Positions 32,295 through 64,000 of a DNA stretch of 64,000 nt are shown here, in pieces (positions within the stretch are counted from its first letter, which is position 1; each line of letters opens with the position of its first letter). A model generated the notes under the pieces. The model was not told the DNA's origin. It saw only the letters and a list, made by a program, of their open reading frames with translations, and searched no databases. This DNA comes from Chloroflexota bacterium. Lineage in GTDB: Bacteria > Chloroflexota > Anaerolineae > 4572-78 > J111. The DNA lies in assembly GCA_016860845.1 (NCBI GenBank), contig BOKF01000010.1, positions 124,001-188,000 of the forward strand. Reading direction: 5' to 3'. A program made the translations under genes and the position numbers.

Positions 32295-32295
32295 C

Positions 32296-33450: not shown

Positions 33451-33452
33451 CT

Positions 33453-34430: not shown

Positions 34431-34441
34431 TGGCTAAGTCC

Positions 34442-43591: not shown

Positions 43592-46087
43592 TCAGCTATA
43601 TTCAGCGTGTTGAGCTTTCTGATCCAAAGCGGCCAGAACACGCTCCGGCGTCATGGGCAGTTCGGTCAGGCGTACACCGACGGCGTCATAGATGGCATTG
43701 GCGATGGCGGCGGCGGTCGGGGTGCCGCCCATCTCCCCCACGCCCTTGGCCCCAAACGGCCCCTGGGGGTCGTCCGTTTCGATCAGGCAGGTTTCAATTT
43801 GGGGCATATCCGCAACGGTGAACAGCCGGTACAGCCGAAAATCGGGATTCAACACCTGCCCCTCCCGCACGATTAGCTCTTCGCTTAGAGCGTAGCCCAG
43901 CCCCATCTGCGCCCCGCCTTCAATCTGGCCCTCCACTGCCAGGGGATTGATGGCCCGGCCCACATCGTTGGCGCAGGCCAGCCGCAGGACCCGCACGATG
44001 CCCGTTTCGGTATCAACCTCGACTTCCGCCATTTGCGCCCCAAAGCCATACGTGGCCGAGATGTTACCTTTGTAGGTATCTTTGTCCACCAGTTTGGTCG
44101 GTGGGTCATACCAACCCTCACCCATGATGACCTGGCCGCCCTCACGGTAGTGCCGGCTGCGGACAACCTTGGCCAAAGCAACCGATTTTGGATTTTGGAC
44201 ATCGTGCCCTTTGGGTATTTTAGGTTTTAGATTTTTTTCTTTACTCCCCTGCTCCTCTGCTCCTCTGCTCCTCTGCTCCCCTGCGACTTCTATTTTACCG
44301 TTATGAGTAACCAACTCTTCCGGATTGACACCGAGCATCTCGGCGGCGGTTTCAAAAATCTGGCGGCGAGCCGCCAAGGCGGCCTGGTGCGCGGCATTCC
44401 CGGCGATGAAGGTGGTCCGGCTGGCATGCACCCCCACATCCCACGGCTTGACGTCGGTGTCGCTGTTGAGCACGGTCACATCACTCACCGGCACTCCCAG
44501 CACATCAGCCACAATCTGGGCCAGCACCGTTTCTGACCCCTGGCCGATTTCGCTGGAGCCGCTAATCAGGGTGACATGCCCAAAATCGTCCACTTTGACG
44601 ATGGCCCCGCAGCCATCGCTGCGATAAATCCGCGCCCCTCCGCCCACGTTCAAGGTTGAAGCAAAGCCGATACCGACTTTGGATTTTGGATTTTGGATTT
44701 TGGATTTTGGATTATTGGCAGCATCGTCCTGGCTGGGTCCAAAATCGGCCATCGAAAATCTAAAATCGGCTGCTCCTCTGCTCCCCTGCCCCTCTGCTCC
44801 CCTGTCCGCCGCGGCTGCTACCGCTTCAAGGCACTCCTTTAGCCCGCACGAGGTAATGATTAGACCCTGGGGCGTTTCGGTATTGGGCCGGTTGGCGTTG
44901 AGGATACGGAAGGCAGCCTGGTCCATCTGCAAGGCTTCGGCCAGCCGGTCCATGATGGTTTCGGTGAAAAAGGTGGACTGCGGGTTGCCGTAGCCACGCA
45001 CCGCGCCGGTCACCGGGTTGTTGGTGTAGACGCACTCGGCTTTGAAGCGCACATGCGGCACTTCATATAATGAAGCAGCGGTTTCCATCATGACCAGCGG
45101 CGTGACCGAGCCCCAGGAAACGTAGGCCCCAATATCCAGCACCGCCGCCACATCGCGGAAGGTGAGCTTGCCGTTTTTACGCGCTCCGGCCCGCACCGAA
45201 ACCTGGCAAGGCTGGCGAGCCGGCCCTGCTGTAAACTCTTCCTGCCGGGAGAAAGCCAGCCGCACCGGCCGGCCGGTTTTGCGTGACATCAGCGCGGCGA
45301 TCGGTTCAAAGGGGTAGATGTCTAACCCCCGGCCAAACGCGCCACCGATGGCCGTCTGGATAATCCGAATCTGGCTGCCGGGGATGCCCAGGGCTTCGGC
45401 CAGGTCGCGCTGTAATAAGAAGGGAATCTGGGTGAGGCTCCACAGCGTCAGATGGCCGCGTGGGTCAAACTGAGCAACGACCACGCTGGTTTCCATCGCC
45501 GCAGCATTCACGTAAGGCAGCCGGTAGCTGGCCTCAACGATCACGTCGGACTCGGCCTCGCCAGTGGCGAGGTCGCCATGCTGGTAATGATAGGTGGTGA
45601 AGTGGTTGCTGCTTCGCTCCAGGTGAATGAGCGGCGCACCGGGAGCCAGGGCCTCTTCCACCGAAAAAATGGGGGGTAGCGGCTCGTAGTCAACCTCGAT
45701 TAGGGCGAGGGCTTCTTCGGCGGTATCGCTGTCTATAGCAACCACTCCGGCCACTTCGTCGCGCCGGCTGCGGACGATCTCGCCTTTGAAGGGGGTGTTA
45801 TCCTTGCCGTAGCCGAACTTGGTGGGCGGGTTGTCGGCGGCGGTCAGCACCGCCTTGACCCCCGGCAGACGCTCAGCCCGCGAGGCATCAACCTTGAGGA
45901 TGCGGGCATGGGGGTAGCGTGAGTACAGGATACGACCATGCAGCATACCGGGGAGGCGGACATCGTGGCCATAGATCATGCGGCCCATCACCTTGGCCGG
46001 GGCATCGAGTTTGGGGATACGCTGGCCAATGAGGGGTTTTGGATTTTGGACTGCCCTTTCGGGCGTGGATTTTGGATTTTCTGTCAT
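43592..46087 (-). CDS. Molybdenum hydroxylase large subunit (xanthine dehydrogenase/aldehyde oxidase family) with three repeat-coded segments
   Basis: An 831-residue Mo-cytosine-dinucleotide or pterin-binding subunit. Cofactor motifs are GGAFGRGLDIYPFEP, AVRGYGNPQSTFFTE, SSEIGQGSETVLAQI and the active-site Glu in GVGEMGGTPTAAAIANAI near residue 785. It hydroxylates an aromatic ring, aldehyde or acyl-CoA using water. Three stretches are repeat-coded: the N-terminus (NPKSTPERAVQNPKP), a block near residues 430-475 and a block near 610-640. The latter two each combine an AT-rich repeat with a CTCCTCTGCTCC repeat. Substrate unknown. Confidence 0.92.
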   Translation of the reverse strand: MTENPKSTPERAVQNPKPLIGQRIPKLDAPAKVMGRMIYGHDVRLPGMLHGRILYSRYPHARILKVDASRAERLPGVKAVLTAADNPPTKFGYGKDNTPFKGEIVRSRRDEVAGVVAIDSDTAEEALALIEVDYEPLPPIFSVEEALAPGAPLIHLERSSNHFTTYHYQHGDLATGEAESDVIVEASYRLPYVNAAAMETSVVVAQFDPRGHLTLWSLTQIPFLLQRDLAEALGIPGSQIRIIQTAIGGAFGRGLDIYPFEPIAALMSRKTGRPVRLAFSRQEEFTAGPARQPCQVSVRAGARKNGKLTFRDVAAVLDIGAYVSWGSVTPLVMMETAASLYEVPHVRFKAECVYTNNPVTGAVRGYGNPQSTFFTETIMDRLAEALQMDQAAFRILNANRPNTETPQGLIITSCGLKECLEAVAAAADRGAEGQGSRGAADFRFSMADFGPSQDDAANNPKSKIQNPKSKVGIGFASTLNVGGGARIYRSDGCGAIVKVDDFGHVTLISGSSEIGQGSETVLAQIVADVLGVPVSDVTVLNSDTDVKPWDVGVHASRTTFIAGNAAHQAALAARRQIFETAAEMLGVNPEELVTHNGKIEVAGEQRSRGAEEQGSKEKNLKPKIPKGHDVQNPKSVALAKVVRSRHYREGGQVIMGEGWYDPPTKLVDKDTYKGNISATYGFGAQMAEVEVDTETGIVRVLRLACANDVGRAINPLAVEGQIEGGAQMGLGYALSEELIVREGQVLNPDFRLYRLFTVADMPQIETCLIETDDPQGPFGAKGVGEMGGTPTAAAIANAIYDAVGVRLTELPMTPERVLAALDQKAQHAEYS
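44190..44290. repeat. Composite in-frame repeat insertion 2 of the molybdenum hydroxylase gene
   Basis: GATTTTGG units, the core GACATCGTGCCCTTTGGGTA (44198-44217), AT-rich units and then four CTCCTCTGCTCC units. It codes for the stretch RSRGAEEQGSKEKN followed by LKPKIPKGHDVQNPKS. Confidence 0.85.
44672..44815. repeat. Composite in-frame repeat insertion 1 of the molybdenum hydroxylase gene
   Basis: Four tandem TTTTGGATT units (44679-44712), further AATCGGCCATCGAAAATC sequence, then CTCCTCTGCTCCCCTGCC units. It codes for DRGAEGQGSRGAADFRF, then NNPKSKIQNPKSK, ahead of the conserved GIGFASTLNVGG. Confidence 0.85.
46034..46082. repeat. Repeat module at the 5' end of the molybdenum hydroxylase gene
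   Basis: GGTTTTGGATTTTGGACTGCCC then a CTTTCGGGCG palindrome and GATTTTGGATTTT. It codes for ENPKSTPERAVQNPKPL. Confidence 0.85.
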
Positions 46088-48135: not shown

Positions 48136-48181
48136 CCATAATTACGTAGTGCGTGGTACGTTTACGCACCACGTATTACGC
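48136..48181. repeat. TACGTAGTGCGT/ACGCACCACGTA palindromic repeat
   Basis: Left arm 48144-48155 and right arm 48165-48176 pair with one mismatch. It separates iorA and iorB copy 2 and supplies the iorA TAA stop. A related element lies at 58984-59040. Confidence 0.75.
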
Positions 48182-50125
48182 TGTTTCTATCAACGCTGGG
48201 GACATCTCCGCCACTGCCTTCCGCACAATAAAGCCTTTGTAACAGGCGTCAATACACTGGCCGCAGTCTATACAAATCTTGTAATCTATATCTACCCGGC
48301 TCTTATCGGGGCGCAGGACGAGGGCCGGGCACTCAAAGGCTTCGATACAGTAGCGGCAGCCGTCACACTCTTCAGTAATGATGACCGGCAGTGGAGTCTC
48401 TCTTACTGGCGCTGCATCGTAAAGTACGCATGGCCGGTCGGCGATGATAACGGCCACGCCCCCATCCTCGGCCTGGGTATAGGTGTGTGCTTCACGCAGG
48501 AGCGTGTGGAAGTTTGGCTGGTCGTAGGGATCAGCTTCTTTTACAAAATTCACACCGCAGGCGCGCACCAGATTGGGAATGGAGATCACACGGGCAGCCT
48601 CACTGCCGTCGGCCAGATACGTATTGGCGGCGGTGGGCTGGAAGCCGGTCATAGCGGTGGTGTGGTTGTCGAGGATGAGGAGCACGAAGCGCGCCCCGGT
48701 GTGAACAGCGTTAATGAGCGGTACGATACCGGAATGGAGGAACGTAGAATCGCCAATGGTGGCGATGATCGGACGGTTATCGCCCACCAGCCGATTAGCC
48801 TGGTAAAAGCCATCGGCCATAGTGATGGATGCGCCCATATCCACAAAGGTATCTACCGCCCGCAGGTTAGTACCCAACGTGTAGCAGCCAATATCGCCCG
48901 GATAGATGGCGCTGGCCCCAAAGGTGTGCTTGAGAGTGTAAAAGGCGGAACGGTGGGAGCAGCCCGGACATAGGCGCGGCTTGCGGACCGGCAGCGCTAG
49001 AGAGTTGACCAGGGCCAGTAGTTCCGAGTTATCTGGGGGCGGGTTAACCGCATAGCCCGCCTCGGTCAGCACCCCGGCCAAAACGGCGGCAACCACTTCC
49101 GGCGAAAGTTCACCGGCAGCCGGGACCGTACCATCCATCCGCCCTCGCACCCGGCTGCGCTCCGGTAGTTGCAGTTCGATGCATGCGTCTGGCTCTTCGA
49201 GAATGAGCACTGTTTGGAATCTAGCCATAAACTCCTGCACCATTTTTTGCGGCAGCGGGTACGGCGTGCCGATTTTGAGCAGAGAAAGCTGCACCCCCAA
49301 CTCCGACAAAGCTTGCTGGGCCGTGTGGAAGGCAACACCGGAGGCGATAACGCCAAGGCGATTTTTGATTTTAGACTGCCCGTCTGACGGGCGTGGATTT
49401 TCGATTGGCTCTAGGGCGTAGTTGAGCGAAGATTGGTTAAATTCTGACTCAATCTGAGCCAGCTTTTGGTTGAGTTCGACGTGTAGCTTGTAGCGGAATT
49501 TGGGCGTGGCGGTCCAGCGGGGCGGGTCGCGCCGGAATTTGACTGCGGGAACGGCGTCAGCGGCGAGCGGCTGGTCAACTATAGCAATACTCTGGACGGC
49601 ATGGCACAGCCGGGTGGTCGGGCGGAGGATAACCGGGAGACCGTATCGCTCGGACAGGGTAAGGGCCTGTTCGACCATAAGCCGGGCTTCAGCCGGGGTA
49701 GCTGGGTCAAAGACCGGTACTTTGGCGGTCAGGGCCAGCAGCCGGGAGTCCTGTTCGGTTTGGGAAGAATGGGGGCCAGGGTCGTCGGCAGGGATAATGA
49801 TAAAACCACCTTTAACCCCGGTGTAAGCGGCGCTAAAAAGCGGATCGGAGGCCACGTTCAGGCCGACTTGCTTCATCGCGACAGCAGCCCGCAGGCCGGT
49901 CCAACTGGCGGCCAGGGCTACTTCAAAGGCCACTTTTTCATTGGCCGACCATTCGGTGTAAATCTGGCGGGCCAATTCCTTCTTGTACTTAATAACCCCG
50001 GCCAGGATTTCAGAACTGGGCGTGCCCGGATAAGCCGTCACAACCCGGCAGCCTTGCTCGACCAACCCCAGGGCGATGGCGTCATTGCCTGGCAACATTT
50101 TCAGAGGCATCTTTGCCTCGGTCAT
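48176..50125 (-). CDS. iorA: Indolepyruvate:ferredoxin oxidoreductase alpha subunit (copy 2)
   Basis: About 649 residues, same domain order as copy 1: AYPGTPSSEILAGVI, GDIGCYTLGTNLRAVD, IGDSTFLHSGIVPLIN, DNHTTAMTGFQPT, and a C-terminal ferredoxin domain with CDGCRYCIEAFECP and CIDCGQCIDACYKG. The first ferredoxin motif has an altered spacing (CxxCxxCxxxxxC). The start at 50125 (MTEAKMPLKMLPGND) has GAGGAG upstream. An in-frame repeat gives ENPRPSDGQSKIKNR around residue 250, at the same linker where copy 1 carries its own insertion. Confidence 0.94.
   Translation of the reverse strand: MTEAKMPLKMLPGNDAIALGLVEQGCRVVTAYPGTPSSEILAGVIKYKKELARQIYTEWSANEKVAFEVALAASWTGLRAAVAMKQVGLNVASDPLFSAAYTGVKGGFIIIPADDPGPHSSQTEQDSRLLALTAKVPVFDPATPAEARLMVEQALTLSERYGLPVILRPTTRLCHAVQSIAIVDQPLAADAVPAVKFRRDPPRWTATPKFRYKLHVELNQKLAQIESEFNQSSLNYALEPIENPRPSDGQSKIKNRLGVIASGVAFHTAQQALSELGVQLSLLKIGTPYPLPQKMVQEFMARFQTVLILEEPDACIELQLPERSRVRGRMDGTVPAAGELSPEVVAAVLAGVLTEAGYAVNPPPDNSELLALVNSLALPVRKPRLCPGCSHRSAFYTLKHTFGASAIYPGDIGCYTLGTNLRAVDTFVDMGASITMADGFYQANRLVGDNRPIIATIGDSTFLHSGIVPLINAVHTGARFVLLILDNHTTAMTGFQPTAANTYLADGSEAARVISIPNLVRACGVNFVKEADPYDQPNFHTLLREAHTYTQAEDGGVAVIIADRPCVLYDAAPVRETPLPVIITEECDGCRYCIEAFECPALVLRPDKSRVDIDYKICIDCGQCIDACYKGFIVRKAVAEMSPALIETA
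49362..49407. repeat. In-frame repeat module in iorA copy 2
   Basis: Core GACTGCCCGTCTGACGGGCG (49374-49393) with TTTTTGATTTTA and GATTTTCGATTG flanks. Confidence 0.88.
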
Positions 50126-50152
50126 TGTACTCTCCTCAAACAACTACAAGCT

Positions 50153-53059: not shown

Positions 53060-54394
53060 ATGAAAGAAAAAGTTCTTGAACAAATCAAAACGTTGGGCCT
53101 ACGCTCGGTCAAAGTCACCTTTCCCGACCTGTTTGGCATTGCCCGAGCCAAAGTGGTCCCGGCTCGCCACTTTGCCCATGCCATTGAGCATGGCGTCCAC
53201 TTTGCCATCCCCACTTTTTCACTCGACCTGGCGGGCAATCCGGCCGGCGGCACTGGCGTAGCCGAAGAAGTGGGTTATGCCGACATGGTGGCTATGCCGG
53301 ATTTGAGCACCTTCACCGTCATTCCCTGGGAAGAGAACACCGCCGCTGTGATTGCCGATCTGTATTACCAGGGCGAGTTACTGGCCCTGGCTCCCCGCAC
53401 TATCCTCAAGCGCATGGTGGCCGAAGTGAACCGGCGGGGCTACCGGCCGGTTATCGGCAGCGAGTTGGAATTCTATCTGCTGCAACAGCTTGAGGGCGAG
53501 TGTCGCACTTATGTGAATAAACCCAGCATGGTCTATACCTGGAATGAAACCATTGACCGGCAGCGGGTTATTCACCAAATTACCGATGCCCTGGAAGCCA
53601 TGAACTTTGAAGCGACCTCCTTTTGCCACGAATTTTTCCCTGGCCAGTATGAGATCAACCTCAACCATGCTGAGGCCCTGCAAATGGCCGACCGGACCTT
53701 CTTTTTCAAGCAGGCAGTTAAGGAGATTGCCTGGAAAAATGACCTGTTGGCCACCTTTATGGCCAAACCCCGCAGCGACCTGGGTGGCAGCGGCTTCCAT
53801 CTGCACATGAGCCTGGAAGACCGGGAAACGGGCCAGAATTTGTTTGGCGACCCCAGAGACGCCCAGGGCATGTCCAAGTTGGCCTATCAATGGATTGCCG
53901 GGCATCTGGCCCATGCCCAGGGCACAGCCGCCATCTTCGCCCCCACCATTAATTCCTATAAGCGGTATGTGCCCGGTGCGTTTGCGCCCTTCCTGGTTTT
54001 GTGGGGCCTGGACAACCGCACCTGCTATCTCCGGGTGCCACCGGAGCGCGGTGGAGGGACGCGCGTTGAAAACCGCATGCCCGATGGGGTGGCCAACCCC
54101 TACCTGGTGATTGCCGCTGCCCTAGCTGCCGGCCTGGATGGCCTTGACCGTAATTTAGACCCCGGCCCCAGCTACGAGGGAGACTCCTACACCATCACCG
54201 AGCCAGGCGATATCGGGGTAGTACCCCAATACCTGCATGACGCCGTGGCTGCGCTGCAAAAGGATGAGTACCTCTGCCGGATGATGGGGCCGGCCTTTGT
54301 GCAGGCGTTCACGGCGGTCAAGACCCTGGAAGCCCAGCGCTTCCGGGCGCATGTCACCGATTGGGAATTTAATGAGTATGTATTTCATTTGTGA
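53060..54394 (+). CDS. gmaS: Gamma-glutamyl-amine ligase, glutamine-synthetase fold (GmaS/GlnT-like)
   Basis: A 444-residue ligase that would join glutamate to an amine with ATP, giving a gamma-glutamylamide. Start MKEKVLEQIK follows GGAGGGGG. Metal and ATP residues are GSELEFYL (Glu135, Glu137), FFPGQYEIN, GSGFHLHMS (His247, His249). The PDLFGIARAKVVP stretch is typical of GmaS, GlnT and PuuA. The DGSS ammonium-site motif of real glutamine synthetase is absent; the aligned region reads FSLDLAGNPAGG, which fits a larger amine. The mgsABC genes that follow support a methylamine/N-alkylglutamate route. Confidence 0.85.
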   Translation: MKEKVLEQIKTLGLRSVKVTFPDLFGIARAKVVPARHFAHAIEHGVHFAIPTFSLDLAGNPAGGTGVAEEVGYADMVAMPDLSTFTVIPWEENTAAVIADLYYQGELLALAPRTILKRMVAEVNRRGYRPVIGSELEFYLLQQLEGECRTYVNKPSMVYTWNETIDRQRVIHQITDALEAMNFEATSFCHEFFPGQYEINLNHAEALQMADRTFFFKQAVKEIAWKNDLLATFMAKPRSDLGGSGFHLHMSLEDRETGQNLFGDPRDAQGMSKLAYQWIAGHLAHAQGTAAIFAPTINSYKRYVPGAFAPFLVLWGLDNRTCYLRVPPERGGGTRVENRMPDGVANPYLVIAAALAAGLDGLDRNLDPGPSYEGDSYTITEPGDIGVVPQYLHDAVAALQKDEYLCRMMGPAFVQAFTAVKTLEAQRFRAHVTDWEFNEYVFHL

Positions 54395-54482
54395 TGAAAA
54401 GGTAGCAGGTAGTAGGTCGTATCATTTTATTTTTCGGCGGTCGGCGGTCAGCCGTCGGCGGTCTGTTTACAAGGAGGGAAAA

Positions 54483-55928
54483 ATGTCCGAGCATAACCAC
54501 AAATTAAGAGCCGATATTGTCACTTCGCTGGATGCGGCGGCCCAATCTTTTGGCTTTGTCGGGCCGGTCTTTGTCATGGCCTTTCTGACCACTTTTGTGG
54601 CTATGGGGGCCGGCCTGGCCACGCCGCTGGCAACCCTGATCAGCGGGCTGGCCAGTGTGGCCGTTGGCTATGTGGTAGCCCAGTTTGCCATTCGCCACCG
54701 AGCCGCCGGTTCGATGTATACCTATATCGCCCAGACCTTTGGTCCGATTCAGGGCTTTATGGGCGGCTGGATTTACATGTTTGCCGTTTTGATGCTGACC
54801 ATGGCCATTGTGGCCGGGGTGGCCGGTTGGACGTCGGGTTTTCTGGCCGATTTTGTGGGGATCAACATTCACTGGCTGGCGGTCCTGGTTTTTGAGTTGG
54901 TGGTGTTGTTTTTGCTGACCTATTTCGACGTGCGCTACTCGACCCGCGTTCAACTGACCATTACCGCTGTTTCGGTGGTCATTGTGCTGGCCCTGGCGCT
55001 GACCATCATCTTTACCGGCGGAGCGGAGGGTAACATGCTGGCCCCCTTCTTGCCCGGCTCAGCCGGGGGGTTGGGCAACCTAGCCTTCGGCCTGATTTTT
55101 GGTATGCTCTTGTATACCGGCTACGAGTCGGCGGCGGTGCTGGCCGAAGAGGCCAAGCATCATGAATCCATTCCCCTGGCGGTGATTGGTTCAGCCGTCC
55201 TGGCGACGGTTTTTTATGTCATTGTGACCTATGCCTACGCTATCGGCTGGGGCGCAACCAACGCCGGGGCCTGGGCTGAGGAATCAGCCGTTCTGTTTGC
55301 GATGGGGGCCATGTATTGGGGCGACTGGGCGGTGCCGCTGCTCTTTGCCATCGCCATCATTGACGCCTTTGCCGTAGCTATGGCCTGTCTTAACACCGTC
55401 GCCCGCGTGGTTTACGCCATGGCCCGTGATGGGGCGCTGCCTCGTCCCCTGGGGCGGACTCATGGCAAATATCAAACTCCCCACATTGCCAATGGCGCGG
55501 TGCTGATTTTGGGTCTGCTGGCGGCGCTGGCCTTTATCCCTATTGGCGGCGGTCTGGCTGGCAGTTGGGAATTAGAGTTTGGCTTTTTGGCCGGTACGGG
55601 TGGTATTGCGGTTGAGATTATCTACATTTACCTGGCCGTAGCCGCTATCTTTTACTTCCGGCGGATCATGCAGGCCAACTACTCTATCTTCAAACATTTA
55701 CTTGTGCCGATTATCGCTATCATTGGGCCTGCGGCGGCTTTGTACGGCTCAATTCAGCCCCAGGGCGGCCTGTTAGATGCCATGCCTTACGCCGTGTTAG
55801 GTTGGATCATCATGGGTCTTATCTTGATCAACGTGCTGCGAGCCTCACAGCCGGAGATGGTCTCTAAACTGGGGCACGATTTGGGTGTTGAGGATGTCGA
55901 GGCGGATACAGCCCCTGCGGTAAGCTGA
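54483..55928 (+). CDS. APC-superfamily amino acid/amine permease
   Basis: A 481-residue membrane protein with about twelve helices starting MSEHNHKLRADIVTSLD, behind AAGGAGGG. The first helix region (AAAQSFGFVGPVFVMAFL) and LIFGMLLYTGYESAAVLAEEAKH are typical of APC transporters. It sits between the ligase and mgsA, so it probably imports the amine or amino compound used by this operon. The 88-bp gap before it contains short CGGCGGTC repeats. Confidence 0.92.
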   Translation: MSEHNHKLRADIVTSLDAAAQSFGFVGPVFVMAFLTTFVAMGAGLATPLATLISGLASVAVGYVVAQFAIRHRAAGSMYTYIAQTFGPIQGFMGGWIYMFAVLMLTMAIVAGVAGWTSGFLADFVGINIHWLAVLVFELVVLFLLTYFDVRYSTRVQLTITAVSVVIVLALALTIIFTGGAEGNMLAPFLPGSAGGLGNLAFGLIFGMLLYTGYESAAVLAEEAKHHESIPLAVIGSAVLATVFYVIVTYAYAIGWGATNAGAWAEESAVLFAMGAMYWGDWAVPLLFAIAIIDAFAVAMACLNTVARVVYAMARDGALPRPLGRTHGKYQTPHIANGAVLILGLLAALAFIPIGGGLAGSWELEFGFLAGTGGIAVEIIYIYLAVAAIFYFRRIMQANYSIFKHLLVPIIAIIGPAAALYGSIQPQGGLLDAMPYAVLGWIIMGLILINVLRASQPEMVSKLGHDLGVEDVEADTAPAVS

Positions 55929-55945
55929 GGCATAAGGAGGTTGGT

Positions 55946-56863
55946 ATGTGTGGAATTGGCGGCGTTAAATTAGCCCGCTCCGGGCCGATTGGCCCCCACC
56001 TGGTCAATATGATGACGGCCCTGCGCCACCGCGGGGCCGATTCGACCGGCTTTGCCTTGTATGGTCCTTACCGGACAGACCGGCTGGTGGCCCGGCTGCG
56101 GGTCGAGGGGCGAGAGAGCCTGGCAGCCAAATTGCAGGCCATCGAAGCGGCTTTGCCAAAGGCCGGCGGTCGCCTGCTCAGCCCGCCCACCTGGGACGGC
56201 GACGAGACGGCCGCGGATGCCTTTGTGCGGCTGGAAGTCAGCCCGGAGGTCAACATTGAGCAGGTGACGGCGGCTTGGATTGATCTGGGCGGCGTCGAAG
56301 TGCATAGTTTCGGCCACTCGCTGGAGATTATCAAAGATGTCGGCGACGCCCGGACGGTGGCGGCCCGGCACGGTCTGCTCGACTTTCAGGGCACGCACGG
56401 GCTGGGCCACTGCCGCCTGGCCACTGAGAGCGCTGTGGACGTGGCCCACGGACACCCCTTCTGGGCCAGGCCCTTCCCCGATGTCTCCATTGTCCACAAT
56501 GGCCAGATTACCAATTACTACAAATCGCGCCGCTTGCTGGAACAGGAAGGGTACAGTTTTTGCAGCGAGAACGACTCGGAGTTGATTTCGGTTTTTATTG
56601 CCGACCGCATGAAACAGGGCCAAACTTTTGCCGAGGCGCTGCGCTACTCCATCACCGCGATGGATGGGGTCTTCACCTATCTGCTCTCCCTACCCGAAGG
56701 AATCGGCATGGCCAAAGACCGGCTGGACATCAAGCCGATGATTGTCACTCAAACCGACAAAATTGTGGCGATGGCTACTGAAGAGCAGGCCCTGCGGCAG
56801 GTGCTCCAGCAGGAGATCGAGACCATGAGCTACGGTCCGGCGGAAGTGGTCATCTGGAACTGA
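55946..56863 (+). CDS. mgsA: Class II glutamine amidotransferase subunit of an N-methylglutamate-synthase-like complex
   Basis: A 305-residue Ntn-type amidohydrolase with the nucleophile Cys2 (MCGIGGVKLA), LRHRGADSTGFAL, GHCRLATES and IVHNGQITNYY. In N-methylglutamate synthase this subunit removes the alkylamine from gamma-glutamylalkylamide and hands it to the FMN subunit. It starts behind AAGGAGG, 17 bp after the permease. The alternative is GlxB of a split glutamate synthase; the GmaS-like neighbour favours the first. Confidence 0.88.
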   Translation: MCGIGGVKLARSGPIGPHLVNMMTALRHRGADSTGFALYGPYRTDRLVARLRVEGRESLAAKLQAIEAALPKAGGRLLSPPTWDGDETAADAFVRLEVSPEVNIEQVTAAWIDLGGVEVHSFGHSLEIIKDVGDARTVAARHGLLDFQGTHGLGHCRLATESAVDVAHGHPFWARPFPDVSIVHNGQITNYYKSRRLLEQEGYSFCSENDSELISVFIADRMKQGQTFAEALRYSITAMDGVFTYLLSLPEGIGMAKDRLDIKPMIVTQTDKIVAMATEEQALRQVLQQEIETMSYGPAEVVIWN

Positions 56864-56887
56864 CGATTTTGGATTTGAGGTGAGGCG

Positions 56888-57601
56888 ATGGAACTAATTA
56901 TTATGGAAAGAGAGATGGTTAAAATTGATGCGGATGGTCAATCTGTCCGTGAGCTAAATACCCGGCTGCGGCAGATGGTGGCTGATGGCTGTGAGGTTGT
57001 GATTGAGAATCCCCGGTCCCGGCACAACCTGGGCGTGGCCCTGCCCGTCGGGGGAAAGGTTTGTTTTGAGGGCAGCGTGGGCTACTATTGCGGCGGCCTC
57101 AACAACGGGGCCATCATCGAAGTGACTCACAACGCCGGTTGGGGCGTGGGCGAGGGTATGGCCGCTGGCTTCATCCGGGTGCGCGGGCAGACCGGCCAGA
57201 GCACCGGCGCTTCGCTGCGGGGCGGGACCATTGTGGTCGAAGGCAACGCCGGGGCGCGGACCGGGGTGGCCCAAAAAGGAGGCGTGGTCGTTGTCGGCGG
57301 CAACGTTGGCTTTTTGTCTGGCTTTATGGCCCAAGCCGGCAAGCTCATTGTGCTGGGCGACGCCGCCGACGGCATTGGCGACTCGCTCTACCAGGGCAAC
57401 ATTTACGTGGCCGGGCAGATCCACGGGCTGGGGCTTGACGCCGTGATTGTCGAACCGGCCCGCAGCGAGATTGACGAAATCGAGGCCATCGTGGCCGAGG
57501 CCGGTTTTGGCCTCAGCCTGCGCTTCTGGAAAAAGGTGGTGTCCGGGCAGAAATTATGGTATTTTGACAAGCGGGAGGCAGACACATGGCTGAAAGTCTA
57601 A
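56888..57601 (+). CDS. mgsB: Glutamate-synthase C-terminal (beta-helix) domain subunit
   Basis: A 237-residue right-handed beta-helix protein with repeated Gly-rich turns: GSVGYYCGGLNNG, GASLRGGTIVVEGNAGARTG, GGVVVVGGNVGFLSG. It is the scaffold domain of glutamate synthase as a separate subunit, matching MgsB/GlxC. It shares 16 bp with the next gene. A short AT-rich repeat (GATTTTGGATTTG) lies just before its ribosome site. Confidence 0.9.
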   Translation: MELIIMEREMVKIDADGQSVRELNTRLRQMVADGCEVVIENPRSRHNLGVALPVGGKVCFEGSVGYYCGGLNNGAIIEVTHNAGWGVGEGMAAGFIRVRGQTGQSTGASLRGGTIVVEGNAGARTGVAQKGGVVVVGGNVGFLSGFMAQAGKLIVLGDAADGIGDSLYQGNIYVAGQIHGLGLDAVIVEPARSEIDEIEAIVAEAGFGLSLRFWKKVVSGQKLWYFDKREADTWLKV

Positions 57602-58926
57602 ACGGAAATCATCCTACCCCATCGCGGAGCCACATCTGGCCGCCGCACGTGATCCAAGAGATTCAAACCAAAGCGGAATTGGGCCGCTACCAAATCCGGG
57701 GCTTCTCCACCTTTTTCAACATCCCCACCCTGGACCAGCTCGTTTTTTTACCGGCAGCCATGACCCGCCTGCCGCTGGAAGGCTACCGCGAATCGTGCGA
57801 GACCAAAACCATTTTGGGTGGTTACAAAAAAGAGTTGGTCAGCCAGCCGATGGAATTGGACATCCCGGTTTACATCGCTTCGATGAGTTTTGGCGCATTG
57901 AGCCGGAACGCCAAGGTAGCCCTGGGGCGGGGCGCTACCAAGGTCGGAACCTGCACTTCCACCGGCGAAGGCGGGATGCTCGAAGATGAACGTCTTGCCT
58001 CCAAAAAGTTAATTTACCAGATGACCCCCAGCCGCTACCAGCTTGACCTGGAACATCTACGCCGGGCCGACGCCATCGAGATTGCCATTGGCCAGGGCGC
58101 GAAACCGGGCACCGGGGGCGTCCTGCTGGGCATGAAGGTGATTGATAAGGTGGTTGAGATGCGCCAGTTGCCCAAAGGGATTGACCAGCGCTCCTCGGTG
58201 CGCCATCCCGATTTTCTCGGCCCGGACGATATGCAAATAAAAATCGAGGAACTGCGCGACGCCACCGGCTACCGCGTCCCCATCTTTTGCAAAATGCCTG
58301 CCTGCCGCGTGACGCATGATGTTAAGATTGCGGCCAAAAGCGGGGTGGATGTGATTGTGATTGACGGCATGGAAGGTGCGACCGGCGCCTCGCCCGAATT
58401 TTTGCTGGATCATACCGGCATCCCCACCGTTGCCGCCATCCCGGCCGCCCGCCGCGCTTTGGAAGAGATTGGCATGTACGGTAAGGTGTCGCTGGTGGTT
58501 TCCGGCGGCCTCAAATCCGGCGCCGACGTGGCCAAAGCCCTGGCCCTGGGGGCCGATGCGGTGGCTATCGGCACGGCGGCGTTGATGGCCCTGGGCTGCA
58601 ACTCGCCTCGGTACGTTGACGAGTACCACGCCCTGGGCGCAGCGCCGGGCGCATGCTACCACTGTCACACCGGCCTCTGCCCGGTGGGTGTGGCTACCCA
58701 GGACGAAAAACTGCAACAGCGGCTCGATCCGGACGAGGCCAGTGAGCGGCTGGCGAATTTCCTGCGGGCGATCACCATGGAAGTGACCATGCTGGCCAAA
58801 GCTTGCGGCAAGGCCAACGTCCACGACCTGGAGCCGGAAGACCTGCGGGCGCTCACCCTCGAAGCCTCGGCCATTACCGGCGTGCCGCTGGTGGGAGTGG
58901 ACAAGGTGGTGCAGCCGTGGGGGTAG
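57586..58926 (+). CDS. mgsC: FMN glutamate-synthase-domain subunit of an N-methylglutamate-synthase-like complex
   Basis: A 446-residue FMN-binding barrel. TGEGGMLEDE, QGAKPGTGG, GADAVAIGTAAL and the [3Fe-4S] segment CYHCHTGLCPVGVATQ are all present. It would couple the freed amine with 2-oxoglutarate and reduce the imine, forming an N-alkylglutamate. Start is behind GGGAGG inside mgsB, showing translational coupling. Length and three-gene layout match MgsC. Confidence 0.9.
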   Translation: MAESLNGNHPTPSRSHIWPPHVIQEIQTKAELGRYQIRGFSTFFNIPTLDQLVFLPAAMTRLPLEGYRESCETKTILGGYKKELVSQPMELDIPVYIASMSFGALSRNAKVALGRGATKVGTCTSTGEGGMLEDERLASKKLIYQMTPSRYQLDLEHLRRADAIEIAIGQGAKPGTGGVLLGMKVIDKVVEMRQLPKGIDQRSSVRHPDFLGPDDMQIKIEELRDATGYRVPIFCKMPACRVTHDVKIAAKSGVDVIVIDGMEGATGASPEFLLDHTGIPTVAAIPAARRALEEIGMYGKVSLVVSGGLKSGADVAKALALGADAVAIGTAALMALGCNSPRYVDEYHALGAAPGACYHCHTGLCPVGVATQDEKLQQRLDPDEASERLANFLRAITMEVTMLAKACGKANVHDLEPEDLRALTLEASAITGVPLVGVDKVVQPWG

Positions 58927-58983
58927 GGAGTGAGAGTAAGGAGTAGGGAGTAAGGGCAAGGCAACTCCAAGGGGTAAATCAGT

Positions 58984-59040
58984 TAAATGGAATGATGCGT
59001 GATAGTTTTTACGCACCCCGCACCACGTATCACGCATCAA
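58984..59040. repeat. GATGCGTGATA/TATCACGCATC palindromic repeat
   Basis: A perfect 11-bp inverted repeat (58994-59004 and 59028-59038) with an inner partial hairpin, between mgsC and the 2Fe-2S gene; GGAGTAGGGAGTAA repeats lie just before it. It is related to the element at 48136 and may split expression within the operon. Confidence 0.8.
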
Positions 59041-59057
59041 ATTTAGGATACACTCAA

Positions 59058-59342
59058 ATGAGTGCAAAACGTCTTGAGATAATTCAACGCGGCGACCCCA
59101 TCACCATCACAGTCAACGGCAGCCCAGTGACAGCCTACCCTGGTGAAAGTGTGGCCGCGGCGCTGCTCGCTAGCGGGCGGCGCATATTTCGGTCCGCGCC
59201 CCTCAATGGCGAGGGGCGCGGCTTTTTCTGCGGCATGGGTGTCTGCTTCGATTGCCTGGTGATGGTAGACGGCGTGCCCAACGTCCGCAGTTGTATGGTC
59301 GAGGTTCGCCCCGGCTGTACAATTGAGGTGGCGGAAGCATGA
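59058..59342 (+). CDS. Small [2Fe-2S] subunit of a flavin amine dehydrogenase (HcnA/OoxA-N type)
   Basis: A 94-residue ferredoxin-like protein with Cys58, Cys63, Cys66 and Cys79 (FFCGMGVCFDC then VRSC). The start MSAKRLEIIQ is preferred to an upstream ATG inside a palindrome. This is the small subunit typical of HcnABC, opine oxidase and multi-subunit proline or sarcosine dehydrogenases. Its stop overlaps the next start as ATGA. Confidence 0.9.
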   Translation: MSAKRLEIIQRGDPITITVNGSPVTAYPGESVAAALLASGRRIFRSAPLNGEGRGFFCGMGVCFDCLVMVDGVPNVRSCMVEVRPGCTIEVAEA

Positions 59343-60799
59343 CCGAGATCGTTGTCGTCGGGGCCGGGCCAGCGGGGGTAGCAGCGGCAGTCACGGCAGC
59401 CCAGGCCGGGGCCAAAGTGACCCTTATCGAGGAGTCAGCCCGGCCCGGCGGACAATATTTCAAACAGCCGAGGGCGGATCTTGACCCGGACCATTTCCCC
59501 CCTTCACTGGCCGATAACATCCGGCAAGGCCGAGACCTGCTGGCCGGGTTGAACCAGCCCAACCTTGAGCTGCGTTGCAACACGCTGGCCTGGAATGTCA
59601 CCCCCGACCGAAAACTCAGCCTCTATCCGCTCAACGCCGCCAGTGCAGACGAAATACAAGCCCAACGGCTGATTATCGCCGCCGGGGCTTACGAGCGGGT
59701 GATGCCCTTTCCCGGCTGGACGCTGCCCGGGGTGATGACCGTCGGTGGGGCACAGTTGCTGCTCAAGGGGCAAGGTCTGCTGACCGGGCGGCGACGGCTG
59801 CTGGCCGGAACCGGCCCACTGCTGCAACTGGCCGGGGTGCAACTGCTCGAAGCCGGGGCAGAAATTGCGGCGATTGTCGAGCTACAACCCCAAAAGAAAT
59901 TTCTCTCGCTGGCCCCCAAACTGTGGGGGCATTGGGGCAAGGTGGGCCAGGGTTTGACCAACCGGCGGCGGCTGCAACAGGCCGGAGTCCCACTGAAATT
60001 TGGTTATGCCGTTGTCCGGGCGCTGGGCGAGCGAGAGGTGGAGGAGGCGGTCATTGCCAGGGTGGACGACGCTGGCCGGCCCATCGCCGGGAAGGAGGAG
60101 CGGCTGGTGGTGGACACGATTTGCCTCAACTTTGGCTTTGTTCCAGCCACCGAATTGACCCGACTGGCCGGCTGCGAGCAGCGATTTGACCCCTACTTCG
60201 GCGCTCTGGCCACCGTGACCAATGAGACGATGGAGACCAGCCAGCCGGGCATTTTTGCGGTCGGGGAGGTGCGTGGTATTGGCGGGGTGGAGGTGGCCCT
60301 GCTCGAGGGACGTATTGCCGGGGCGGCGGCGGCCCAGCAGTTGGGCTATCAAGTGGACGAGACTGCTCACAGTAGCGCGGCGTTGCGAAAAGAGTGGCAG
60401 AGGGCGCGCTCGGTGGTGGAAACATTAGGGACGATGTTTTCCATCAAGCCAGGCCTATGTGCGTTAGCCTCTGACGACGTTGTAGTCTGCCGCTGCGAAG
60501 AAGTGACCGCCGGGGCGGTGCGGGCTGCGGTAAGAGCAGGGGCCACCCACCTCAACCAGTTGAAACCCTGGGCGCGGGCCGGCATGGGCCGCTGCCAGGG
60601 CCGGGTCTGCGGACCGATTGTGGCCCACCTGGTCGCCCAGGAAACAGGGTGGGATCTGGCCGCTGTCGGAACATTCACCGCTCGCCCGCCGGTCAAGCCT
60701 ATCCCCATGGGTGTTATCGTCGGGCCGGATAAACCGGCCGAACCGGAACTGCAATGGGAAGACCACGTGACCCAGTATGGGCAAGTGAGGAGATCATAA
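59339..60799 (+). CDS. FAD/NAD-type flavoprotein subunit with C-terminal BFD-like [2Fe-2S] domain (HcnB/OoxA type)
   Basis: A 486-residue electron-transfer flavoprotein. It has the FAD fold VVVGAGPAGVAAAV, a middle pyridine-nucleotide-like domain (LAGTGPLLQLAGVQLLEAG), and a C-terminal BFD-like cluster with CRCEEVTAGAV then GRCQGRVCGP. Relatives form heteromeric dehydrogenases for opines, glycine (cyanide formation), hydroxyproline and proline. All of these oxidise an amino acid C-N bond, which suits an N-alkylglutamate. Confidence 0.9.
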   Translation: MTEIVVVGAGPAGVAAAVTAAQAGAKVTLIEESARPGGQYFKQPRADLDPDHFPPSLADNIRQGRDLLAGLNQPNLELRCNTLAWNVTPDRKLSLYPLNAASADEIQAQRLIIAAGAYERVMPFPGWTLPGVMTVGGAQLLLKGQGLLTGRRRLLAGTGPLLQLAGVQLLEAGAEIAAIVELQPQKKFLSLAPKLWGHWGKVGQGLTNRRRLQQAGVPLKFGYAVVRALGEREVEEAVIARVDDAGRPIAGKEERLVVDTICLNFGFVPATELTRLAGCEQRFDPYFGALATVTNETMETSQPGIFAVGEVRGIGGVEVALLEGRIAGAAAAQQLGYQVDETAHSSAALRKEWQRARSVVETLGTMFSIKPGLCALASDDVVVCRCEEVTAGAVRAAVRAGATHLNQLKPWARAGMGRCQGRVCGPIVAHLVAQETGWDLAAVGTFTARPPVKPIPMGVIVGPDKPAEPELQWEDHVTQYGQVRRS

Positions 60800-60800
60800 T

Positions 60801-60879
60801 TGTGAATTATTAATTGTTAACCATTCACAATTGACTATTCATACCGCAAGGGTATCCCTTTGGGACAATTCACAATTTT
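60801..60879. repeat. CAATTCACAATT-type dispersed repeat
   Basis: TTGTGAATTATTAATTG, CCATTCACAATTG, a CCGCAAGGGTATCCCTTTGGG segment and ACAATTCACAATT fill the gap before the fusion gene. A relative lies at 17464. Confidence 0.75.
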
Positions 60880-60889
60880 TTACGGGACT

Positions 60890-62662
60890 ATGGCTAACCA
60901 GCAACCCAGCTCAAATAGCGCCGATGTGGTTATCATCGGCGGCGGCATTATCGGCTGCGCGGCGGCGCACTACCTTGCTCAACACGGCGCGGAGGTGCTG
61001 CTCATCGAGCGGCGGGGGATTGGCAGCGGTGCGTCGGGGCGGTCCGGCGGCGGGGTGCGCCAGTCGGCCCGCGCCTCCGAAGAGCTGCCGCTGGCCCTGG
61101 AAAGCATCGCTCTTTTCCCCGGCTTGTCTGACGAATTGAGCCTTGACCTGGAATACACCCGCGCCGGCAACCTGCGCCTGGTCGAAATCCCCGACCATGT
61201 CCGGCCCATGCAGCTTGACATCGTCCGGCAGCAGGCCGTGGGCCTGGAGTTGCGCTGGGTGGGGCCCGAGGACGTGCGGGAACTGGTCCCAGGATTGGGT
61301 CAAGGCGAAGTGTTGGGGGCCAGTTTTTGCCCCACCGATGGACACTGCAACCCCTTTCGGTTGGTCACAGGCTTTTACCAGGCCGCCCTGCGAGCCGGAG
61401 CCAGGACATTGCTCGGCTACGAAGTCCGCGCCATCCGTCAGACCGAGGGCGGCCAGGCCATCGTCGAGGCTGGCGACCGGATCGTGACTGCGCCAACCGT
61501 GCTGATTGCTGCCGGGGCAGGATCACTCGAACTGTGTTTGAAACTCGGTTTCGACCTGCCCCTGGCGAATATGTGCTATGAATCCATGATTTCCGAGGCC
61601 CTGCCCCCACTGTTTCCCTACATGTTCGGTGTGGCCACCGGCGATTTGTTTTTTCGCCAGACCCGGCATGGCGGTGTTCACTTTGGCGGCGGGACGATTG
61701 CGCCAAGCGAGATTGAGCGGGTTACCGGGGCGAACCTCAAGCTGGCAGTTGAACATCTCACCCGGCTGCTGCCATCGCTGCGCCAGGTTTCGCTGCTGCG
61801 CACCTGGGGCGGCCTGGACCCCAATACCCCGGATGGCCTGCCGATTATTGACCGGCTGAATGAGAATGTCATTCTGGCAACCGGCTTCTGCGGCCACGGC
61901 CTGGCCATCGGCCCGGTGGTGGGGCGTTACCTGGCCGACTGGATCAGCAGCGGCGACAAGCCCGCCCCTCTCACCCCCTTCCCCCACGAGCGCTTCAAAC
62001 GCTGGCTGCGTACCCGCTGGACTCCCTCAGGCACGTTTGAAGCCGCCCTGGCTACCGGCGCTCCTTCCAGCCTCCCAACTGGCAGCAATGGTGCACAAGC
62101 CAAAATCGAAACCGGGCCACACTCCAAAATCCAAAATCTAAATTCTAAATTCCAAAATCTCTTGGTGATTGACCCTGCTCTCTGCACCGGCTGCCGCATG
62201 TGCGAGATGGCCTGCTCTATTGAGCATGAGCAAGTGGTCCTCCCAACTGACAGCCTCCGCATTCGCGTGGCCTACCCCAGCGATGATTTTTTTATGCCCA
62301 TGACCTGTATCCACTGCGAAGAAATCTACTGCATGAAATCCTGCCCTTTTGCCGCGCTGGAACTGGATGGTGACTCTGGGATTATCAAAGTTATTGACGA
62401 GAACTGCACTGGCTGCATGCTCTGCGTCAAAGCCTGCCCCTACGGCGGCATCTACTTTGTTGAAGAAAAGAAAACCGTGATCAAGTGCGACCTGTGCGGC
62501 GGCAACCCCGCCTGCGCTATTTACTGCCCCACCCAGGCTATCACCTTCGCCCCGCTGGATGGGGACACCTGGGGCCGGATGAAACAAAGGGCGGTAGACA
62601 ATCTCTGGGCGTTGGTAGAGAAGGACCAGCTTAGAACCAGAAGGAGGAAGCGCCGGAAATGA
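60890..62662 (+). CDS. DAO-type flavin amine dehydrogenase fused to a four-cluster ferredoxin (HcnC-AorA-like fusion)
   Basis: A 590-residue fusion starting MANQQPSSNSADVVIIGGG. Residues 1-400 are a glycine/sarcosine/D-amino-acid-oxidase-type FAD domain (GASGRSGGGVRQS, FDLPLANMCYES, TWGGLDPNTPDGLPIID, FCGHGLAIGPVVG). Residues 424-590 hold four cluster motifs with Cys near 432-442, 473-485, 506-516 and 533-546, like the ferredoxin subunit that serves aldehyde oxidoreductases. The linker (residues 405-423, including SKIQNLNSKFQNL) is coded by an AT-rich dispersed repeat. Electrons from amine oxidation could pass straight to the clusters. Its stop overlaps the next start. Confidence 0.9.
   Translation: MANQQPSSNSADVVIIGGGIIGCAAAHYLAQHGAEVLLIERRGIGSGASGRSGGGVRQSARASEELPLALESIALFPGLSDELSLDLEYTRAGNLRLVEIPDHVRPMQLDIVRQQAVGLELRWVGPEDVRELVPGLGQGEVLGASFCPTDGHCNPFRLVTGFYQAALRAGARTLLGYEVRAIRQTEGGQAIVEAGDRIVTAPTVLIAAGAGSLELCLKLGFDLPLANMCYESMISEALPPLFPYMFGVATGDLFFRQTRHGGVHFGGGTIAPSEIERVTGANLKLAVEHLTRLLPSLRQVSLLRTWGGLDPNTPDGLPIIDRLNENVILATGFCGHGLAIGPVVGRYLADWISSGDKPAPLTPFPHERFKRWLRTRWTPSGTFEAALATGAPSSLPTGSNGAQAKIETGPHSKIQNLNSKFQNLLVIDPALCTGCRMCEMACSIEHEQVVLPTDSLRIRVAYPSDDFFMPMTCIHCEEIYCMKSCPFAALELDGDSGIIKVIDENCTGCMLCVKACPYGGIYFVEEKKTVIKCDLCGGNPACAIYCPTQAITFAPLDGDTWGRMKQRAVDNLWALVEKDQLRTRRRKRRK
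62101..62162. repeat. AT-rich repeat forming the linker of the fusion gene
   Basis: AAAATCGAAACC, then CCAAAATCCAAAATCTAAATTC and AAATTCCAAAATC, read in frame as AKIETGPHSKIQNLNSKFQ. TTG and GTG codons just after it could allow internal initiation of the ferredoxin part, but no ribosome site is seen. Confidence 0.85.
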
Positions 62663-64000
62663 CCTACTACGGCTATGCCGGAAAAATCTTGCGGGTCAAT
62701 TTGACCGAGCGCCAAGTGACGACCGAGCCGCTCGACCTGAAGCTGGCCGAGGATTTTGTCGGCGGGCGCGGGTTGTCTTCTCGCCTGCTGTACGAGGAGT
62801 TGGACCCGGCCTCCGACGCTCTGGGACCGGATAACCAGCTCATCTTCGGGACAGGACCGCTGACCGGAACAGGCGCTCCGGCGGCTTCGCGCTACGTGGT
62901 GGTCTGTAAGTCGCCGCTGACAGGCACCATTGCCTGCTCCAACTCCGGCGGCTTTTTTGGCCCGGAGCTAAAGTTTGCCGGTTATGATGTGTTGATTTTT
63001 GAGGGCCGGGCTACTGAACCGGTCTACGTCTGGATTGAAAACGACAAAGTAGAGATTCGCCCGGCGCAGCACTTGTGGGGCAAAACCGCCCCGGAAACCG
63101 ATGCGGCGGTGCTGGCCGAAACCCACCCGGCGGCCAAAGTGGCCTGTATCGGCCCTACCGGCGAGCAGTTGTCGCCCATCGCCGGGGTGGTCAACGACCG
63201 CACTCGCTTGGCCGCTCGCTCCGGCGTGGGCGCGGTGATGGGCAGCAAAAATTTGAAAGCAGTGGCTGTGCGGGGGACTCAAAGCATCAAGCTGGCCGAC
63301 CCCAAAGCCTTCTGGTTGGCCATCCAAGAGGTCAACCGGAAAATTGTCAATGACCCAATTTCCTTTGGCAGCTTTCGCGCCTACGGCACGGCCAACCTGG
63401 TCAACCTGCTCAATGAAACCGGCGGCTACCCTACCCGCAACTTTCAGGAAGAAGTGTTTGAGGGGGCGGCGGCGGTCAGCGGCGAGGCACTCAAAGAGCG
63501 GATGACCCGTACCAACCGGGCCTGTTTTGCCTGCCCCATCGCCTGCACCCGCGTGACCGAGATTGTGGACGAGCGCTTTGCCGCCAAAGGTGAAGGACCT
63601 GAGTTTGAATCGCTCTGGGGCTTTAGCGCGCTGTGCGGCATTGACGACTTGGCGGCAGCGGTCAAAGCCAATTATCTCTGCAACGATTACGGCATAGATA
63701 CCATGTCCCTGGCCGTCACCATCGCTACGGCCATGGAGATGTATGAAAGCGACTTTCTGACTCAAGCAGTGGTCGGCTTTCCCATCGGCTTTGGTATGGC
63801 TGATGAGATGGTCCGCCTGGTCGAGCTGGCCTGCCGGAGTGAAGGATTTGGGGTCGAGTTAGCCCAGGGTTCCTACCGGCTCACCCAAAAATATGGCTGC
63901 CCCCACCTGTTTATGGGCGTTAAAAAGCAGGAGATGGCGGCGTACAGCCCCCGCGTCTTTCAGGGGATGTCGCTGCACTATGCAACCTCTAACCGGGGGG
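62659..64000 (+). CDS. aor: Tungsten aldehyde:ferredoxin oxidoreductase, 3' end cut by window edge
   Basis: The first 447 residues of an AOR-family enzyme, which oxidises aldehydes to acids with ferredoxin. MTYYGYAGKILRVNLT is the classical start, behind AAGGAGG. Pterin-binding regions GGRGLSSRLLYEEL and GVGAVMGSKNLKAV are present, as are three cluster ligands Cys289, Cys292 and Cys296 in CFACPIAC; the fourth lies beyond the window. EGPEFESLWGF and GIDTMS are also typical. It overlaps the fusion gene by 4 bp, so aldehyde oxidation and amine oxidation are translationally coupled. A true AOR is most likely; exact aldehyde unknown. Confidence 0.95.
   Translation, partial: MTYYGYAGKILRVNLTERQVTTEPLDLKLAEDFVGGRGLSSRLLYEELDPASDALGPDNQLIFGTGPLTGTGAPAASRYVVVCKSPLTGTIACSNSGGFFGPELKFAGYDVLIFEGRATEPVYVWIENDKVEIRPAQHLWGKTAPETDAAVLAETHPAAKVACIGPTGEQLSPIAGVVNDRTRLAARSGVGAVMGSKNLKAVAVRGTQSIKLADPKAFWLAIQEVNRKIVNDPISFGSFRAYGTANLVNLLNETGGYPTRNFQEEVFEGAAAVSGEALKERMTRTNRACFACPIACTRVTEIVDERFAAKGEGPEFESLWGFSALCGIDDLAAAVKANYLCNDYGIDTMSLAVTIATAMEMYESDFLTQAVVGFPIGFGMADEMVRLVELACRSEGFGVELAQGSYRLTQKYGCPHLFMGVKKQEMAAYSPRVFQGMSLHYATSNRG

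Follow-up and report, generated by a model that had tools for sequence, protein, structure and literature searches.

What do nine closely spaced genes do that together close a 64,000-nucleotide stretch from a Chloroflexota bacterium (contig BOKF01000010.1, positions 124,001 to 188,000; this whole stretch is called the window)? The genes lie at 53060-64000 and encode, among others, a ligase of the glutamine synthetase superfamily, MgsABC-like proteins, a dehydrogenase and a tungsten aldehyde oxidoreductase (AOR). A sequence-only reading had proposed for them a folate-independent version of the N-methylglutamate pathway of methylotrophs. Gene content and order, conservation, domains, the loss of ligase residues and the co-variation of a dehydrogenase fusion with AOR were observed here. 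They point to the catabolic oxidation of an amine via an N-substituted glutamate, in which the aldehyde would be handled by an exchangeable module and, by gene content, no folate enzyme would take part. We put the probability of this pathway at about 0.6.

Layout of the Operon

The open reading frame (ORF) list and the family scans gave nine ORFs, in the order described by the sequence-only reading:

53060..54394, + strand: glutamine-synthetase-fold amine ligase (LIG), candidate gamma-glutamyl-amide synthetase in a clade of its own (family scans, PDB match, tree, residues)
54483..55928, + strand: APC-family permease, candidate amine importer (family scans)
55946..56863, + strand: MgsA-like class II glutamine amidotransferase, Cys2 retained (family scans, tree)
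56888..57601, + strand: MgsB-like GXGXG protein (family scans)
57586..58926, + strand: MgsC-like FMN protein with a glutamate synthase domain (Glu_synthase; family scans, tree)
59058..59342, + strand: 2Fe-2S protein (Fer2_4), putative small dehydrogenase subunit (family scans)
59339..60799, + strand: HcnB-like FAD protein with BFD and SO_alpha_A3 domains, resembling PDH1 alpha (1y56_A)
60890..62662, + strand: fusion of a DAO flavoprotein, a disordered linker and an AorA-type polyferredoxin with 16 conserved Cys
62659..64000, + strand: tungsten AOR, ending at the window edge (family scans, PDB matches, motif)

Each ORF starts with ATG at its first coordinate. Three junctions overlapped (MgsB/MgsC by 16 bp, Fer2/HcnB and fusion/AOR by 4 bp each), which confirmed the tightly packed plus-strand operon described before, and AGGAGG-like sites were located upstream of the ligase, permease and MgsA genes. 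The promoter scan gave 5 against a shuffle mean of 4.0 and the terminator scan 15 against 13.4, showing no enrichment; judging from gene spacing alone, the nine genes would share a single transcript. The visible part of AOR comprises 447 aa, compared with about 610 aa in its relatives. Among the NCBIfam matches listed (the best 25 for two proteins, and with AOR incomplete), no operon protein reached a curated cut-off. In the nearest relative, a genome titled Caldilineales (G001), the ligase, permease, MgsA, MgsB and MgsC genes were colinear with those of the window at 79-87% identity, so that the operon is not due to chance. The HcnB-like protein, the fusion and AOR of G001 (67-81% identity) were encoded on a separate contig of the same genome.

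The Ligase Is Predicted to Use an Amine Instead of Ammonia

An alignment of 33 proteins, 21 of them LIG, was evaluated with the numbering of E. coli glutamine synthetase. All 21 LIG had A, C or V at Asp50, F at Glu327, V or C at Tyr179 and G at Asn264, and had lost Ser53, while ten residues of the ATP, glutamate and metal sites were retained throughout (E129, E131, E212, E220, H269, R321, R339, R344, E357, and R359). The residues typical of GlnA (Asp50, Ser53, Tyr179, and Glu327) were thus missing. According to the available text of PMC7948447, the Asp of the Asp50 loop binds and deprotonates ammonium in glutamine synthetase, and GmaS carries Ala48 at this position and Trp300 at that of the flap Glu. 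The loss of the ammonium-site Asp and the flap Glu, which is characteristic of GmaS (PMC7948447), was found in 21/21 LIG. These residues support the prediction that LIG acts on an amine and is not a glutamine synthetase, as the sequence-only reading had held, and LIG did not group with any of the three glutamine synthetases used in the tree. A plain glutamine synthetase/glutamate synthase pair was rejected on the same lost ammonia-site residues.

The further identification of LIG as GmaS did not stand. LIG formed its own clade (support 98/92), and the GmaS/GlnT references were placed elsewhere. Asp177, which deprotonates methylamine in GmaS (PMC7948447), was replaced by C, S, A or N in all 21 LIG (column placed via the Aminobacter homologue), and Phe stood at the Trp300 position. 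The amine pocket of LIG is thus probably less acidic than that of GmaS. These differences bear on a methylamine-specific form of the pathway, in which N-methylglutamate would be split into glutamate and formaldehyde and AOR would convert formaldehyde into formate. The best PDB sequence match of LIG speaks for this form, being a glutamate-methylamine ligase (9qur, 249 bits), followed by an archaeal glutamine synthetase (234 bits); the separate clade and the missing Asp177 and Trp300 speak against it. The studied GmaS also accepts ethylamine and propylamine (PMC7948447). Taken with the evidence on AOR and on the relatives given below, the methylamine-specific form is unlikely, and methylamine is a possible substrate that we do not favor.

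MgsC Groups With the N-Methylglutamate Synthases of Methylotrophs

The MgsC of the window shared 53-56% identity with five MgsC proteins that are encoded on plasmids beside glnT/gmaS genes. With the MgsC of G001 the identity was 88%, with those of most other sister loci 45-50%, with a relative from haloarchaea 36% and with GltB of E. coli 32%. In the Aminobacter plasmid cluster, all four mgd-type sarcosine-oxidase subunit genes follow MgsC. In the MgsC tree, which included only two distant outgroups and barely sampled the archaeal split glutamate synthases, MgsC did not group with GltB, and the methylotroph side (99/95) comprised the window, the second set of genome G005 (the relative of that in G001) and locus L011. 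The split three-gene layout and the closeness of MgsC to MgsC rather than GltB were in line with the earlier label mgsABC-like, and Cys2 was retained in MgsA. The grouping also favors the methylamine-specific form.

It is difficult to reconcile with ordinary nitrogen assimilation, in which a glutamine synthetase and a split glutamate synthase would lie beside an unrelated amino acid dehydrogenase. The superfamilies are indeed the same. However, the ammonia-site residues are lost in every LIG, MgsC is far closer to MgsC than to GltB, and the gene linkage is held across phyla, which makes this explanation barely credible.

Two MgsABC lineages could be distinguished, with the window (55946-58926) and G001 in one and most sister loci in the other; G005 holds both in tandem (L060 6752-12751). 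A 421-aa ORF in L060 was considered as a longer MgsB and rejected, since Pfam found only GXGXG in it and a second set of MgsA, MgsB and MgsC is present there.

The Dehydrogenase Carries an AorA-Type Polyferredoxin

By its sequence, the last dehydrogenase subunit is a flavoprotein like sarcosine oxidase beta and proline dehydrogenase, fused to an AorA-type four-cluster polyferredoxin. Its DAO domain was closest to proline dehydrogenase beta, sarcosine oxidase beta and glycine oxidase, which are enzymes of secondary or N-methyl amino acids. The C-terminal domain matched AorA (8c0z_C) at 130 bits and 9mqx_E at 102 bits, and 16 polyferredoxin Cys were present in 33/33 proteins, in keeping with a four-cluster polyferredoxin of the AorA type, here as a fused instead of a free domain. 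The structural model reached a mean pLDDT of 86.2 with a deeper alignment, replacing an earlier model of 67.8; the Foldseek/VIA-align rows cover the DAO domain, and the polyferredoxin was assigned from sequence. We found neither the DAO-AorA fusion nor this operon described in the open-access literature searched.

The HcnB-like protein (486 aa) matched only part of SoxA, and no full-length SoxA-type alpha subunit was encoded in the operon as read to base 64000. MgdABCD belongs to the N-methylglutamate route as set out in PMC5023235 (available text). The view that mgd is replaced here by another dehydrogenase was upheld, the candidate being a proline-dehydrogenase/sarcosine-oxidase-like enzyme without the C-terminal half of SoxA. 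This holds for the operon. Across 29 genomes, SoxA (TIGR01372) exceeded the cut-off in five (G008, G009, G011, G012, and G014) and was near full length below it in eight (G002, G003, G013, G015, G018, G023, G024, and G028); matches below the cut-off also occurred in 14/14 control genomes. Among the matches listed for the six Chloroflexota fusion genomes (G001, G004, G005, G006, G007, and G010), none was near full length, where only best matches are listed and the metagenome-assembled genomes (MAGs) may be incomplete. Since a SoxA-type gene occurs elsewhere in 7 of the 13 fusion genomes, its genome-wide absence is not general.

The DAO domain also raises a route like putrescine utilization, in which the ligase would protect one end of a diamine, DAO would oxidize the free amine, AOR would replace PuuC and MgsA would remove glutamate. 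PuuB is a DAO protein as well (25.6% identity), and LIG lay nearer to PuuA than to GmaS in the tree, with a support of only 83/47. On the other hand, this route leaves MgsB and MgsC, which are conserved with the ligase, without a role, and Arg303 was kept in 10/10 aligned DAO proteins, as in the MgdA-type proteins and unlike PuuB. We regard it as improbable.

AOR Co-Varies With the Fusion

The AOR protein contained AFOR_N and AFOR_C domains, its CxxCxxxC cluster motif was invariant in 15/15 proteins, and its best PDB match was 9mqx_D (525 bits). A MoaD/ThiS-like gene, of a protein cluster in which one member was identified, followed AOR in 8 of 14 loci; aorD is its counterpart in Aromatoleum (PMC6365974, available text).

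One scan of genome contigs yielded 45 loci with the dehydrogenase or its DAO protein, and the full fusion was found in 14 of them. Six of these were in MAGs titled Chloroflexi, Caldilineales, Anaerolineae or Anaerolineales, and eight in MAGs titled SAR324, Deltaproteobacteria, Proteobacteria, Acidiferrobacteraceae or Arenicellales. AOR directly followed the fusion in 13 of the 14 loci, and three ORFs intervened in L006. Fusion and AOR were both present in 14 loci, both unseen in 31 (where AOR was looked for in the fetched stretch, several stretches being short) and mixed in none. The case for AOR as predicted partner of the dehydrogenase, already made by the sequence-only reading, is strengthened by the fused AorA-type domain. 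A tungsten aldehyde enzyme was predicted to act on formaldehyde in Methyloversatilis, which would suit the methylamine-specific form; its transcript, however, was lower on methylamine than on methanol (PMC5023235, available text).

Distribution of the Gene Set

With the fusion as protein query, 120 matches were listed. P0001-P0055 were 55-97% identical, each with 4Fe-4S domains, and P0060-P0120 were 37-43% identical with no 4Fe-4S domain listed, besides a few fragments and DAO-only proteins. LIG, MgsABC, the dehydrogenase and AOR were together on one contig in L007, L008 and L010, and also in genomes G002, G003 and G006 after the upstream stretch was added. In G001 and G005, LIG-APC-MgsABC reached the contig end and the remaining genes were on another contig. 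Neither LIG nor MgsABC was found within the stretch examined in L009, L014 and L016. LIG was present at 44-81% identity in 11 of the 13 fusion-bearing genomes. The co-occurrence elsewhere that had been put forward as a check was thus found in Chloroflexota, SAR324 and marine proteobacteria. Of 298 genomes belonging to one class, five were matched by the fusion model, four by LIG and four by MgsC. Three of the five fusion matches covered the ferredoxin part, and these three genomes appeared in all three lists, while G013 and G015 matched the DAO part; the fourth LIG genome (G211) had LIG-APC-MgsA-MgsB, then the contig end. The system is rare and patchy.

Some neighboring features were also recorded. 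Two Chloroflexi MAGs encode close DAO relatives (59-66%; L013 8023-11089 and L015 8446-11053) that lack the ferredoxin part, with no AOR found in the stretch; they perhaps reflect a state before or after the fusion event. Near dehydrogenase-AOR, seven non-Chloroflexota loci (L002, L003, L008, L009, L011, L012, and L014) encode an ABC transporter of the branched-chain type in which permease and ATPase are fused; its proteins form clusters whose identity was taken from the L002 member. The APC permease was tagged in Chloroflexota loci only, save a weak 39-bit match in L028.

Distant Relatives Combine the Core With Other Aldehyde Enzymes

The 29 distant loci (L017-L045) retain the 2Fe-2S, HcnB-like and DAO genes, and MgsC lay within the stretch in 14 of them. 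LIG-MgsABC was located upstream of the dehydrogenase in G022 and G028. Their neighbor clusters comprised PduS/RnfC-like genes in 11 loci, bacterial microcompartment shell genes in nine, aldehyde dehydrogenase in eight and RidA-like genes in 12, with families verified on one or two members per cluster. RidA-like proteins are known for imine hydrolysis. The microcompartment-type relatives occur in MAGs titled Deltaproteobacteria, Desulfobacterales, Syntrophobacteraceae and similar. The aldehyde dehydrogenase of L029, an enzyme of the acylating type, scored 519 bits on the EutE/PduP-type model (cut-off 403), with 5jfl and 4c3s as best structures. Such an enzyme independently suggests that the dehydrogenase product is an aldehyde. 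It would fit aldehydes of C2 or larger better than formaldehyde, which again weakens the methylamine-specific form. Four Bacillota loci (L019, L020, L035, and L040) had LIG-MgsABC-dehydrogenase with no AOR tagged and fell outside the shell, PduS and aldehyde-dehydrogenase clusters; a RidA-like gene was present in L019, L020 and L040. Since AOR, an EutE/PduP-type enzyme or neither is found beside the same genes, by gene content the constant core is the ligase, Mgs and the dehydrogenase, and the aldehyde enzyme varies.

MgsABC-like and 2Fe-2S/HcnB/DAO genes stand together with PduS/RnfC-like, shell and EutE/PduP-type aldehyde dehydrogenase genes in microcompartment loci L018, L023, L025, L026, L028, L029, L030, L042-L045, L054 and L056, with RidA-like and TRAP genes in some. 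The dehydrogenase and MgsABC are possibly the aldehyde-making module of an unassigned microcompartment type. Many metabolosome loci have an aldehyde dehydrogenase and no obvious signature enzyme making the aldehyde (PMC8217296); "glutam" does not occur in the available text of that paper, nor are glutamine synthetase or glutamate synthase mentioned in the available main text of PMC4207490. In the window operon, family scans assigned no shell gene.

Proposed Pathway and Points Against It

For amine oxidation via an N-substituted glutamate, we infer the reactions, docking, electron path, acceptor and substrate from the sequences. The APC permease would take up the amine, and LIG would convert it with ATP into its gamma-glutamyl amide. 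MgsA would then release the amine, and MgsBC would exchange it for the alpha-amino group of glutamate with loss of ammonia, giving an N-alkylglutamate. The 2Fe-2S/FAD-BFD/FAD dehydrogenase would oxidize this compound to an imine, which would yield glutamate and an aldehyde, and AOR, docked on the fused polyferredoxin, would oxidize the aldehyde to an acid. With AOR docked in this way, both electron pairs would enter one iron-sulfur/flavin system. More tentatively, and with somewhat less than even odds, the dehydrogenase and AOR may form one complex in which the AorA domain serves as docking subunit of AOR, the aldehyde is channeled and electrons are pooled (electron confurcation); such a complex and the microcompartment relatives would then belong to a family of N-alkylglutamate pathways with exchangeable aldehyde modules. 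The HcnB-like protein might take the NAD-reducing role of AorC.

Several observations weigh against the proposed pathway. In L011 and L012, the gene after LIG is already that of the 2Fe-2S protein, and MgsABC does not intervene. In G009 and G014 the fusion is present and the best LIG is only 36 and 35% identical. The MgsC of the window belongs to a lineage unlike that of most sister loci, which form a second one, and MgsA is 30-36% identical to both lineages and forms a long unresolved branch. The DAO protein is about equally distant from MgdA-type proteins (24-27%) and PuuB (25.6%). Moreover, the deeper nodes of the LIG tree are weak (83/47), with long-branch warnings from the program, and the counts of fusion/AOR co-variation are phylogenetically non-independent, with several contigs ending early.

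Other Genes of the Window

The remaining alternative is arylethylamine degradation, in which AOR would yield an arylacetate that a PaaK-like ligase activates. It draws on the two PaaK-like and two IOR-alpha-like genes of the window, and on the AOR of Aromatoleum, which accepts a wide range of aldehydes and shows induction on phenylalanine (PMC6365974, available text). However, the nearer PaaK-like gene is 23.6 kb away on the - strand, and the two PaaK-like proteins scored 528 and 377 against a cut-off of 646. Beside the G001 ligase, where the upstream stretch covered 8.9 kb, the only matches to the window genes searched were the operon and one partial match of 35%. The suggestion that the acid feeds the neighboring PaaK was thus unsupported, and we consider arylethylamine degradation very improbable.

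On the - strand, 26311-35782 and 48176-50143 encode the two IOR-alpha-like proteins together with further alpha subunits of 2-oxoacid:acceptor oxidoreductases, and the former stretch also contains a PaaK-like gene (28151-29467). The second PaaK-like gene lies at 8962-12287 (- strand) beside one for a caprolactamase-alpha-like protein, which scored 648 bits against a cut-off of 1000. Isopropylmalate-dehydrogenase-like and dehydratase-large-subunit-like genes flank an acyl-CoA-dehydrogenase-sized ORF at 19939-24233 (- strand), and a molybdenum hydroxylase large subunit, best matched by 4-hydroxybenzoyl-CoA reductase alpha (587 against a cut-off of 995), is encoded at 43592-46087 (- strand).

Comparison With Known Systems

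If the proposed pathway is true, the N-methylglutamate route reaches beyond methylotrophs to Chloroflexota and marine proteobacteria in a form that does without the folate enzyme, the tungsten AOR gets a defined source of its aldehyde, and microcompartment loci get a candidate aldehyde-making module. The operon shares with the N-methylglutamate pathway of methylotrophs a ligase of the glutamine synthetase superfamily and MgsA, MgsB and MgsC in one cluster; it differs in the clade and pocket of the ligase, in the replacement of mgdABCD by a dehydrogenase without the C-terminal half of SoxA, and in the addition of AOR. With AorABC of Aromatoleum and 9mqx it has in common the AOR catalytic subunit, an AorA-type polyferredoxin and, in 8 of the 14 loci, a MoaD/ThiS-like gene after AOR, whereas the polyferredoxin is fused to a predicted amine-oxidizing flavoprotein instead of being a free subunit, and none of the operon genes was assigned as AorC-like. 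Compared with the L-proline dehydrogenase PDH1 (1y56) and heterotetrameric sarcosine oxidase, a polyferredoxin is added to DAO and the C-terminal half of SoxA is missing. Finally, microcompartment loci that have an aldehyde dehydrogenase without a known aldehyde-making enzyme contain distant relatives of the dehydrogenase and MgsABC, and differ from the window operon in having the aldehyde dehydrogenase in place of AOR.

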